Source: Heterostelium album PN500 (Eukaryota; Evosea; Eumycetozoa; Acytosteliales; Acytosteliaceae). From it: a stretch of DNA of 64,000 nt. This document shows positions 28,268 through 35,352 of this stretch, in pieces. How positions within the stretch are numbered: position 1 is the first letter of the stretch; each line of letters opens with the position of its first letter. Location of the stretch: assembly GCF_000004825.1 (NCBI RefSeq), contig NW_008805090.1:434001-498000 (forward strand), read 5' to 3'. The notes under the pieces were generated by a model. That model made no database searches, was not told the origin of the DNA, and was given only the letters and a program-made list of their open reading frames with translations. The position numbers and the translations under genes were made by a program.

Positions 28268-30263
28268 TTATCTCTTAAGTGTTTCAATAATTTGAGCAAT
28301 AAGACTGTGTGTAATACCTGGCTTTGCTTTCTCAGCGTTGTCAAATGCCATTTTGAGTTGTGCCAAAGAGTTGATAACGTTTTCATCTTGTGTGCTACGG
28401 AGCAGCTTCGAGAGCACTGGGTAGATGACAGAGGTGAGAGCGCTCGCTCTTGGTTGAGCAGCGCCGGCACCGTTTTGAGCTGGTGCAGAGACGACTGCGT
28501 TGTTGGTGGCGGGTGCAGGCGAAGATGGCGCAGCATTGGCAACGGCGACCGGTGCAGTTGCAACTGGTGTTGGTTGTTGTTGTACGACTGGTTTTTGAAC
28601 TGGTGCTGGTGTTGGTTGAGTGACGACCGGTGGTGGTGTTGGTTTTGTTGGTTCGTCGACGTTTGGTTTGGTGAATGCAGGTTGTGCGGCTGGCTTGGGT
28701 GCAGCCTGTACAGGTGTTGGTTGTGGTGTGGAGGTAGCGGCAGCGACTACCGGTGACTTGGCGGCTTTAATAGTTGGGAAATCCCATCCGTCGTCGTCGT
28801 CGTTGCCTTTGTTGTCTCTATCGTCGCCGTCTTCATCCTCCTCGACGTTGCCACCGTTCAGCTGTATCCACTTTTGTCGACGTTCGATCAACTCGGTGAG
28901 ACAGCTCGTCTTTTTGGCGGCCTTTATGAATTTGTGTTTCAATAGATCTTTAGCTGTTGGACGTAGATTCGGATCCTTATTCAGACACAAACTACAAAAC
29001 TCTTTGAAACCCTTTGAGAAATTGCCCTCGAGGGTGGGAGGTGGATCCTTTGGGATCAAAAAGAGTGCACGCATCGGATGCAAATCGGCTCTGGGTGGCT
29101 CGCCCTTGGCCATCTCCAACGCTGTAATACCCATACTCCAAATATCCGCTTTCGAATCGTAGCCAGTCTGTTTAATAACCTCTGGTGCCATCCAAAACGG
29201 TGTACCTACAAATGTATTTCTCTTTGTCATTTGATCAGTCAATTGACCACTTACACCAAAGTCTATTTTAGTATTAAAAGTAAAAGTAAAAAGTAAAAAG
29301 TAAAGATAAAGAAAAAAAAAAGAGAAGAAGAATAAGTTAGTTAGTTTAATCATTATCATCAATTCATCATAATTTAAAATAGTTAATAGATCTATCATCT
29401 TACCAGCTAATTTAACATCACCGCTGGCTGACAATAAAATGTTGGCAGCTTTAATATCTCTGTGAATCTTTCCTTCGGAGTGGAGGTATTCAAGACCCTT
29501 GAGTAACTCTCTGAGGATGATGGCAATGAATGCCTCATCGAATGGACCTGGCTTCATGAGATCCAAGACCGATCCACCAGCGAGATACTCCATGATGATC
29601 CAGAGCTTAGTTCCTTTCAAGAAAGAACCAAAGTACTTTGTAACGAAAGGACTCTCACATTGTGACAACACATTGATCTCCTGTTGAATATCTTCGATTT
29701 CATCCTCTGCATCGTCGAGATCGATAATCTTTATAGCTATAGTTTCATTTGTTTTCTTATTTATTCTGTATTTATTTATTTATCATAAATATAAATCATA
29801 GGTTAATTCACATTATTAATAATATAGTACTATATATTTAAATTGATAGAATAGATAGAATAGATAGATTTTACAAAAATGTAAAAAAGAAAACAAAACA
29901 ACAACAATGCTATTGCAATGAAAAACATACCCTTTAAATACCTCACCAAATGAACCTTTACCAATCTTTTCTTGTTTAATATACAACTCTTCTGGATCTC
30001 CTTTTTTGCTTGCCTAAATTATAATACGAATTAGTTGATCTGTTTTGTTTTGTTTTTGTTTTTGTTGTTTATTTTTATTTTCTCAAAACATAAACACAAA
30101 CACTAAACGAAAACACATAAGATGTTTTGTCGCATTCATTCGTTCATTCATTCATTCATTGATAATTATCAAATATGAATCTGAATCAATTCGAATCTTT
30201 GTTTTTGTTTGCTTATGTTTATGTAAGATTGATTGATTGGTTGTTTGATGATCGTCATACCAT
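28268..30263 (-). CDS. svkA: Ste20-family (GCK-III) severin kinase, 480 aa
   Basis: Four exons on the minus strand: 30263-30261 (the ATG alone), 30013-29931, 29765-29404, 29262-28268. Joined they give [20 protein letters not shown], close to the known start of D. discoideum SvkA. The kinase phosphorylates the actin-severing protein severin and affects cytokinesis and cell polarity. Seen: Gly loop GKGSFGEVF at 19-27, Lys41 in IAIKIIDL, catalytic [10 protein letters not shown] at 130-138, DFGVSG with Asp150 split by an intron, activation loop [17 protein letters not shown] Pro/Ala/Gln/Thr-rich linker follows, and a conserved C-terminal helical segment ([20 protein letters not shown] ... [12 protein letters not shown]) of the MST3/4 type. 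All motifs are intact. Confidence 0.93.
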
Positions 30264-31258
30264 TTGTCTATCTATTTATTTTTTATTTATTATCAAATAT
30301 TATATTATTATTATTATTATTATATTACTATTTATTATTATTATTATCTAATATTAATACTATTTTTCAAAGTATGTTCTAATATTATTGTGAAGTTTAT
30401 TGTATGTTTGATATTGACTTGGCTTATTTTGATAATTCCTGTGATGTGATTTACTACAAAACAAAAAAATTATAAAAAAATAAAATAAAAAATAAAAATA
30501 AAAATAAAATATTAAAAAAAGAAAAAGTTATATATATATCTATATTATATTATAAATAATCTTAAATATTGTTGTTTGATCAATATTATTGATTATTTAT
30601 TGTATTGTTGTTATTGATTTGATTGATGAAAAAATAAAAAAAATTTGTTTATTGGTTTGATTGATTGTTATTGTGTTTTTTTTATATTGGAGTTATTTTT
30701 TTTTTTATTATTTTTTTTTGTGTCTTTTTTTAGTTTCAAAAAATTTTATTTTATTTTATTTTTAATTTTTTTTGAATAATTATTCCAGGTTTTTTTTTTT
30801 TTTGATTGAAACAATAGTAAAGAGTTTATCTGGTTGGTGATGTTTATTATTATTATATTTGATTATTATTTTAATAGATTGTTTATTTAGTTTAAACAAT
30901 AAATATTTTCTTTTTATAAATTTGTTTGTTTTCTTTTTTTTTTAATTTTTAATTTTTAATTTTTTGCAAAAAATAATAATAATCTTAAAAGATCGTTCAA
31001 AACATTGAAACAAAAAAGATAAGATAACCCAACCCAAAAAGGAAGGAATAAATTAGTTTGATCATCATTAATTTATATATTGTCCAAAAAACAAAAAAAA
31101 AAAACAATGTTGTTTTGGGGTTATATGATTTTACACAATTATTAGGAATGATGATCTGAACAGCCAGCTGTTTATGTTTTATGTTTTATGTTTTTCTTTT
31201 CTTTTCTTGGACTAACTAAATTTAATTAAATAGAATATTTAATAATATATAATAATCA
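30264..31258. promoter_or_regulatory. Divergent promoter region between svkA (-) and the ComB-like gene (+)
   Basis: About 1 kb of A/T-rich DNA with many A and T runs (30470-30530, 30690-30800, 30930-30965). It must hold the start sites of both genes. No specific motif recognised. Confidence 0.5.
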
Positions 31259-32041
31259 ATGGAGAAAACTGGTGGTGAATTAAGTAAGGTTAGTGTTTGT
31301 TTATCACCTGTTTTATTTTATCAATATGCAGAGCAGTTGGATAGTGATTGTATAGTTGTGGTGATCGATGTACTCAGGGCAACGACAACTATTGCAAGTG
31401 CACTCAACAATGGTGCCAGCGGTGTAAAAGCAGTGTCTGAGGTATCGGAGTGCATCGAAGTCGCCGCTCAGCTCAACGGTGTTGCCGGTGGCGAAAGAGA
31501 GGGAAAGGTAGCACCCGGTCTGGAACATGGTAATTCACCACTGGAATACACCAGAGAGTTGCTAGGTGGACGTCCACTCGTGCTGACAACCACCAACGGC
31601 ACACGTCTTCTCAACCTAGCACAGAAACATTCACCAAAGCAAATCATCACCGGTGCCTTTGTCAACCTGGATGCAGTGGTCACTCACATCCGCGCAGAAA
31701 AGAAACTCTCGGAATCCAATCGATTGAATGTCGTTCTAGCATGTGCAGGTTGGAGAGATTCCGTTTGTCTTGAAGACTCTATGTTTGCTGGTGCAGTAGT
31801 GTCGAGACTGAGAGAAACCGGTGACTTTCAAATTCAATGTGATTCCGCACAGACCGTTGAGTCACTCTACAACAGCGCTAAATCCGACCTCTATGAGAAT
31901 CTCAAATCGGCATCACACTTCCAAAGACTAGCGAAACTCAATCTTTTCGACGACCTCAGATTCTGTCTTACTCCAAGCACAATCAATCTAGTTCCATTGT
32001 TCAACGTTGACACTGGATTATTAATTTCAAAAGTACTGTAA
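31259..32041 (+). CDS. ComB-family protein (2-phosphosulfolactate phosphatase-like), intronless, 260 aa
   Basis: A single uninterrupted frame. ComB hydrolyses 2-phosphosulfolactate to sulfolactate in coenzyme M synthesis in archaea; the wider family is common in bacteria. Seen: the family start with VIDVLRATTTIASALNNGA (residues ~37-55), then LEHGNSPLEY, TTTNGTRLL and ACAGW...CLEDSMFAGAVV, which line the active site in this family. Length fits the usual 230-250 aa. The base composition is less A/T-rich than the spacers but similar to nearby exons. Most neighbours have introns and this one has none. A eukaryotic ComB gene is unusual, so transfer from a bacterium is the likeliest origin. The substrate in an amoeba is unknown. 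Confidence 0.85.
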   Translation: MEKTGGELSKVSVCLSPVLFYQYAEQLDSDCIVVVIDVLRATTTIASALNNGASGVKAVSEVSECIEVAAQLNGVAGGEREGKVAPGLEHGNSPLEYTRELLGGRPLVLTTTNGTRLLNLAQKHSPKQIITGAFVNLDAVVTHIRAEKKLSESNRLNVVLACAGWRDSVCLEDSMFAGAVVSRLRETGDFQIQCDSAQTVESLYNSAKSDLYENLKSASHFQRLAKLNLFDDLRFCLTPSTINLVPLFNVDTGLLISKVL

Positions 32042-32126: not shown

Positions 32127-32777
32127 TTAATTATGCATAATTGAATCTGGAATGAATCCATCATTTACTCCAGCGATGTAGAGATGTTCTGGAAACTCTA
32201 GGGGGTGAGGATTGTTATGTTTCAACTTTGAGATGATAAAGTTAGCGAATTGCTGGCTGTTTATCTGTTGGCTCCAGATGCGTGATGATCCTCCTCCATT
32301 GGCCTGCTGCTTTTCTGAGAAGAATTCATTGTACCATTGGTTTTTGATGACATCTTGTAGACCTTCTGCCCAATGACTTGGTTGTCCTTGATGGTACAGG
32401 TTGTCTATTTTTCCAAGGTGATAGTGTAGGCGGTATTTCTCACGGCGATACGATCCCAGACGCTCCAAACATAGAACCACGTTTGAATCTGGTATGACTG
32501 TAGCGGACGACTCTGAAGTGTTCACATCGGGTGAGGTGAACTCACTCTTTCCTTTCACCAAGAAACACTCCAGTCCCGATGGATTGGACAGAGTCGATTC
32601 ACCACCTACATCTATAACAACACTGTACAAACAATTCTGAGTGGGTTTCGACATTTTCTTTTCACTATAGATAACAAGATAGATGTCACCTACATGCTTA
32701 CTATCCACTTCACTATCTGGAAATGGTGTATAAGGTGGTAGTGGAGGTGGAGTTGATTTACTAAATAGTGATCCCAT
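32127..32777 (-). CDS. Unrecognised 216-aa protein with N-myristoylation signal
   Basis: A single exon converging on the ComB-like gene with only about 85 bases between stops. It starts MGSLFSKSTPPPLPPYTPFP: Gly2 and Ser6 fit the N-myristoyl transferase consensus, and the Lys and Pro that follow suit a membrane-apposed tail. The rest is a compact domain (VGDIYLVIYSEKKMSK, LYSVVIDVGGESTL, GLECFLVKGK, VVLCLERLGSYRREKYRLHY, QWYNEFFSEKQQANGGGSSR). No catalytic motif was recognised. Membrane attachment is an inference from the first six residues. Confidence 0.75.
   Translation of the reverse strand: MGSLFSKSTPPPLPPYTPFPDSEVDSKHVGDIYLVIYSEKKMSKPTQNCLYSVVIDVGGESTLSNPSGLECFLVKGKSEFTSPDVNTSESSATVIPDSNVVLCLERLGSYRREKYRLHYHLGKIDNLYHQGQPSHWAEGLQDVIKNQWYNEFFSEKQQANGGGSSRIWSQQINSQQFANFIISKLKHNNPHPLEFPEHLYIAGVNDGFIPDSIMHN

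Positions 32778-33401: not shown

Positions 33402-35352
<1,951 letters not shown>

Follow-up and report, generated by a model that had tools for sequence, protein, structure and literature searches.

The genome of the social amoeba Heterostelium album PN500 carries one intronless gene for a ComB-type phosphatase (the family of 2-phosphosulfolactate phosphatase), which forms a well supported group with the ComB-like genes of Chitinophagales-type bacteria and is, on the sequence evidence, very probably of bacterial descent. Chitinophagales-type Bacteroidota are soil bacteria of the sort such amoebae feed on, and the account we propose is that a comB gene was captured from them and has since adapted to the amoeba host. 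Its product would be a ComB-fold phosphatase, Mg-dependent by family biochemistry, that cleaves phosphate esters of 2-hydroxycarboxylic acids; the putative substrates are 2-phospholactate, 2-phosphoglycolate and similar side products of the amoeba's own metabolism, and the enzyme would act as a stand-alone phosphatase in repair or scavenging. The catalytic activity of the amoeba protein, the metal it uses, its substrate and its role in the cell are our inference, and we give the account as a whole, from capture to repair or scavenging of 2-phospho-hydroxyacids other than phosphosulfolactate, an even chance.

The gene lies at C28:465259, within a window by which we mean the whole 64,000-nucleotide stretch analysed (C28:434001-498000, on a contig of at least 498 kb). 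It is a single unbroken frame of 260 codons encoding 260 residues with no internal stop (Table 1), opening with the ATG at 31259, the earliest in this frame after an upstream TAA, and closing with the stop codon at 32039-32041. The position, strand and frame given in an earlier note on this DNA are exact, and the four family motifs it quoted, VLRATTTI, GNSPLEY, TTTNGTR and CLEDSMFAGAVV, all stand in the translation as written. A 45-row alignment shows R40 and A41 of the first motif to be invariant, as are D37 just N-terminal of it, S93 and P94 of the second, N113 and G114 of the third, and D173 and G178 of the fourth. The description of the gene as intronless also holds, as the match to Pfam PF04029 (2-phosphosulpholactate phosphatase; E=1e-66, 224.8 bits against a cut-off of 26.4) runs from profile position 12 to 223 of 226 in one frame, and both ends of the protein align with bacterial proteins.

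Table 1. Features of the comB-type gene and its neighbours, in window coordinates.
Feature	Position	Strand	Basis
ComB-type (PF04029) phosphatase ORF, one exon	31259..32041	+	frame, Pfam, genome search, model, conserved columns
TAA in frame, two codons 5' of ATG 31259	31253..31255	+	printed sequence
Motif VLRATTTI, residues 38-45	31370..31393	+	45-row alignment
Motif GNSPLEY, residues 91-97	31529..31549	+	45-row alignment
Motif TTTNGTR, residues 110-116	31586..31606	+	45-row alignment
Motif CLEDSMFAGAVV, residues 170-181	31766..31801	+	45-row alignment
Upstream neighbour, part of protein kinase gene with PDCD10-type dimerisation domain	28268..29593	-	Pfam
Downstream neighbour, 216-aa ORF, no Pfam match	32127..32777	-	Pfam scan
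SRP54 gene exon (SRP_SPB domain)	33402..33767	-	Pfam
Further SRP54 piece	33998-34318		Pfam

Assignment to the ComB family is upheld at the level of sequence, fold and conserved residues. Three solved relatives (2yyv, 1vr0 and 2z0j) are recovered by sequence at E<=0.001, and a predicted model of the amoeba protein (pLDDT 95.3, pTM 0.93) retrieves seven chains by Foldseek at the same threshold, all from these ComB-family entries, with TM scores to target of 0.87-0.92 and the next match at E=0.1. When the protein is aligned with 44 relatives and highly conserved columns are defined as those filled in at least 40 sequences with one residue in at least 90%, it retains 30 of 30, so that the loss of active-site residues named in the earlier note as a ground for doubt, judged here as loss of conserved columns in the alignment, is not seen. 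From this sequence and the predicted model we consider it highly likely that the amoeba protein is an active phosphatase with the ComB fold. Eight NCBIfam ComB-type models match at E<=0.001, every one under its own curated cut-off (the best at 170.4 bits against 330), which places the protein in the family and outside NCBI's named ComB equivalog groups. It thus has family, fold and all 30 columns in common with the ComB of coenzyme M biosynthesis represented by the three structures, but differs from ComB sensu stricto in falling under the cut-offs of the eight models it matches, and its host gives no match to the ComA, ComC or ComE models.

Searches by protein and by family model find one copy only in the 32.9 Mb, 39-contig assembly. 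Twelve other frames, a part of the genes in the window, were scanned against Pfam, with matches to SRP54 and Slu7 (two pieces each), VPS13, PPR, Kelch, a kinase with a PDCD10-type domain and a nucleotide-sugar transporter, the remaining frames having no match. The flanks of the gene are AT-rich, and AT-rich spacers and poly-asparagine tracts are features of this DNA. Under host codon use the synonymous codon score of the gene is -1.69 bits per codon, compared with -1.43 to -1.76 for ten other window frames scored by leave-one-out, and it fits the codon use of bacterial comB genes more poorly (-1.86). The eukaryotic context and native-like codon choice indicate a resident, host-adapted gene. 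A bacterial family and a lack of introns are what contamination of the assembly by bacterial DNA would give, but the gene has eukaryotic neighbours to its left and right on a long contig, lies between AT-rich flanks, shares at most 56% identity with the bacteria found, and has native-like codon use; context, divergence and codon use together rule contamination out, and we attach practically no probability to it. In the upstream kinase frame the PDCD10-type dimerisation domain is C-terminal, as it is in GCKIII-type kinases.

The closest relatives found are ComB-like proteins of Chitinophagales. A first scan of a collection of 84,980 prokaryotic species gave 596 candidates, at least 569 of them confirmed; among the 80 of 569 listed, Bacteroidota take the top rows (L007-L035, 34-40% identity), followed by cyanobacteria mixed with more Bacteroidota, four Bacillota and one Planctomycetota. 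The closest clade is absent from these 80 and was found by a later whole-genome search, so a ranking drawn from the first scan alone would mislead. The later search gave a ComB match in 162 of 296 genomes of the phylum of G001 (Bacteroidota) and in 129 of 298 of the order of G102 (Chitinophagales), the best 30 of the latter at 48-56% identity, and in 26 of 394 genomes at E<=1e-66 in the family of G564, probably Chitinophagaceae. Phylum and order are named from the loci L007, L009, L011, L015 and L017 (G001-G005), which fall in Chitinophagales, and it is to this order that the best matches belong (identity up to 56%, 239 bits). The amoeba and Chitinophagales proteins share an N-terminal LSP-L segment, whereas two short extra loops set the amoeba copy apart from those shown in the alignment. 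Seventeen Chitinophagaceae-type rows agree without exception at 71 positions; the amoeba protein keeps 58 of these, and eight of its 13 changes there are conservative by hand count. A plasmid collection yielded six weak matches. A viral vector for the gene was considered and rejected: a single-protein scan of a viral collection gave seven pattern matches, lying outside the family motifs, and no relative, a scan with alignment A3, the fair test of the two, gave 24 pattern matches and no relative, and tblastn against 50,697 phage records gave no match.

Trees place the gene with these bacteria. FastTree was run on the amoeba protein, 121 locus proteins and two PDB chains (124 rows in all, with most Prochlorococcus loci left out), and a mixture-model tree was made with IQ-TREE from 67 of them picked after the FastTree result. 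The 57 dropped rows comprise four long ones (L004, L005, L006 and L057) and otherwise come from Bacteroidota and cyanobacteria. Bacterial start codons were translated as M, and five of 49 rows checked begin at no start codon. In the IQ-TREE analysis the amoeba gene falls in a 32-row clade with Chitinophagales-type bacteria (support 100/99), within which inner sets of 31, 30 and 25 rows also hold it (98/80, 95/90 and 100/98, respectively). FastTree recovers it in the same clade at another place, with a long-branch warning, and the amoeba branch is indeed long, at 1.1 changes per column in IQ-TREE. AU tests, for groups named after the tree was seen, reject trees that keep the amoeba out of the full set of 53 Bacteroidota-type rows (p 0.0076) or out of the inner clade of 48 (p 0.0154). 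They do not reject a tree that sets it apart from all 31 Chitinophagaceae-type rows (p 0.38), and one that sets it apart from 29 of them equals the free tree in likelihood (p 0.49), so the support values for a nested position are not a safe guide. The clade and the AU tests thus bear out the transfer from bacteria suggested in the earlier note and make its source specific, the Chitinophagales type of Bacteroidota; of the phylogeny it had called for, the part that stands is the grouping with Bacteroidota among prokaryotic rows, and the last two p values admit both a sister and a nested position.

An old eukaryotic gene, passed vertically through Amoebozoa or more widely and lost in other eukaryotes, would also be expected to show a long branch and native-like codon use, as any old resident might, but the tree of prokaryotic relatives puts the gene inside Bacteroidota and the AU test speaks against a place outside them, leaving such a history very improbable. 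Bacterial capture is itself compatible with an early date and later vertical inheritance among dictyostelids. PMC10559540 describes the acquisition of the diguanylate cyclase gene dgcA by dictyostelids through horizontal transfer, the same sort of event with a different gene, and the literature searched yielded no account of an amoeba ComB-type protein. Bacterial genes in dictyostelids are therefore already known, and it is the physiological use of the amoeba ComB that may be new.

Its substrate is probably not phosphosulfolactate, judging from the lack of detected partner genes in the amoeba genome beside the presence of ComA in ComB-bearing Bacteroidota. The earlier note had seen no obvious partner genes nearby, and this extends to the whole genome for the models searched: neither ComA (PF02679; matched in 2 of 14 control prokaryotes) nor ComC (PF02615; 4 of 14) has a match, and sulfopyruvate decarboxylase beta (ComE; TIGR03846) has no amoeba candidate at all, its matches in 14 of 14 controls being related enzymes. 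The searches were six-frame with introns ignored, took sulfopyruvate decarboxylase by its beta subunit rather than ComD alpha, and used 14 prokaryotes as controls, so the absences are only as good as the search. ComA, by comparison, is found in 23 of 23 tested Bacteroidota with ComB. These are 7 of 7 in a first set and, among Chitinophagales, 16 of 16 (the top scorers among 129 genomes with ComB); of the Chitinophagales genomes in which ComB had no match, 2 of 12 have ComA (taken from the top of a list of 169, one skipped). The contrast is weakened in that the genomes are related, were picked by score and include incomplete ones. Chitinophagales copies of comB co-occur with comA, and often lie downstream of gcvT, whereas the amoeba copy has no detected partner. 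Phosphosulfolactate is an unlikely substrate on these grounds, and as no source of it was detected in the amoeba, another 2-phospho-hydroxyacid is the most economical candidate.

Since comB accompanies comA in the donor clade, what the amoeba captured may have been a phosphosulfolactate specialist. Dictyostelids form spores, as does Bacillus subtilis, of which sulfolactate is a known spore solute. PMC517825 puts it at 5% of spore dry weight. Phosphosulfolactate, from digested bacteria or from an unrecognised amoebal route, could on this basis still be the substrate and yield sulfolactate, for example as a spore solute. Against this, the amoeba genome gives no ComA, ComC or ComE-model match, and a phosphorylated dietary intermediate would hardly make a steady substrate; we judge such a use quite unlikely. 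As to the role of ComA and ComB in the donors, sulfonolipid synthesis finds no support in the available part of PMC9304779, in which the sulfonolipid route begins with cysteate and the word 'sulfolactate' is absent. A shikimate dehydrogenase-like gene is present at 9 of 10 comA loci (Pfam on one).

The gene order around bacterial comB raises the alternative that the amoeba protein is a 2-phosphoglycolate phosphatase supplying glycolate to glycine metabolism. The glycine cleavage T protein gene, gcvT (identified by Pfam on one copy), precedes comB on the same strand in 42 of 52 Chitinophagaceae-type loci, 10 of which have it within 400 nt and the others with a gap, and in 19 of 20 further loci from the whole-genome search, within 400 nt in 18. 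Consistent with such an activity, the amoeba genome gives hardly any match to the eukaryotic PGP model, and on a plasmid of Allomeiothermus silvanus (L004, 1-6684) comB lies 3' of RuBisCO, cbbX, phosphoribulokinase and aldolase genes on the same strand, a Calvin-cycle gene order that suggests a phosphoglycolate phosphatase in that organism. However, among named loci a gcvT at no more than 400 nt occurs in 18 of 35 from Bacteroidota, 0 of 40 from cyanobacteria and 0 of 9 others; as it does not adjoin comB in 17/35 (a few of these with little upstream sequence), 40/40 and 9/9, respectively, the gcvT-comB arrangement may be an order particular to a lineage that says nothing about function. The co-occurrence of ComA with ComB also points elsewhere, and a dedicated 2-phosphoglycolate phosphatase seems unlikely, if less so than continued use of phosphosulfolactate. 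A small conserved ORF is seen in the gcvT-comB region of 34 loci (L007-L035, L091-L162); one copy was scanned and had no Pfam match.

The proposed clearance of several 2-phospho-hydroxyacids brings the amoeba protein close to eukaryotic PGP, an enzyme of the HAD family. According to PMC6904873, PGP acts on 2-phosphoglycolate and 2-phospholactate and clears 2-phospholactate and 4-phosphoerythronate, side products of glycolytic enzymes. The amoeba ComB would be a possible functional analogue, though it belongs to a different family and the likeness is one of proposed function alone. In the amoeba genome the eukaryotic PGP model (PGP_euk) finds a weak fragment of 23.5 bits against a cut-off of 201.95, covering 43 positions (204-246 of 279) at C3:2962225, and the wider NagD/PGP-like Hydrolase_6 family gives one partial exon of 47.1 bits at C14:257544-257717. 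From these matches the amoeba may be without a canonical PGP; equally, the partial exon means that PGP may be present, and this lone exon could belong to another member of the superfamily. Given what PGP clears and these weak or partial matches, a metabolite-repair role is plausible, and we hold it tentatively, at somewhat below even probability. That the captured ComB has replaced PGP, a fold of the coenzyme M pathway doing metabolite repair in a eukaryote, is a doubtful further step. If repair is indeed its role, the protein would represent a non-HAD answer to a task that eukaryotes usually leave to PGP.

The gene would be a well-placed example of bacterial metabolism retained by a social amoeba, with its pathway undetected, a specific donor clade and an easily assayed protein. 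An orphan yet conserved ComB could also help explain ComB-like proteins in organisms where the phosphosulfolactate route is missing, by which we mean the tested ComB-bearing cyanobacterial, Planctomycetota, Sporomusa and Clostridium genomes, with ComA in 0 of 4. On a Mesorhizobium plasmid (L005, 5015-9801) comB is part of a gene run with a ribokinase, an oxidoreductase, a mandelate racemase family protein and an SMP-30 family protein. On a plasmid of the amoeba-associated Legionella lytica (L006, 3017-6645) it lies directly 3' of a very long gene (2913 bp) annotated as phosphosulfolactate synthase, and the ComB encoded there is distant from the amoeba gene, at about 26% identity.
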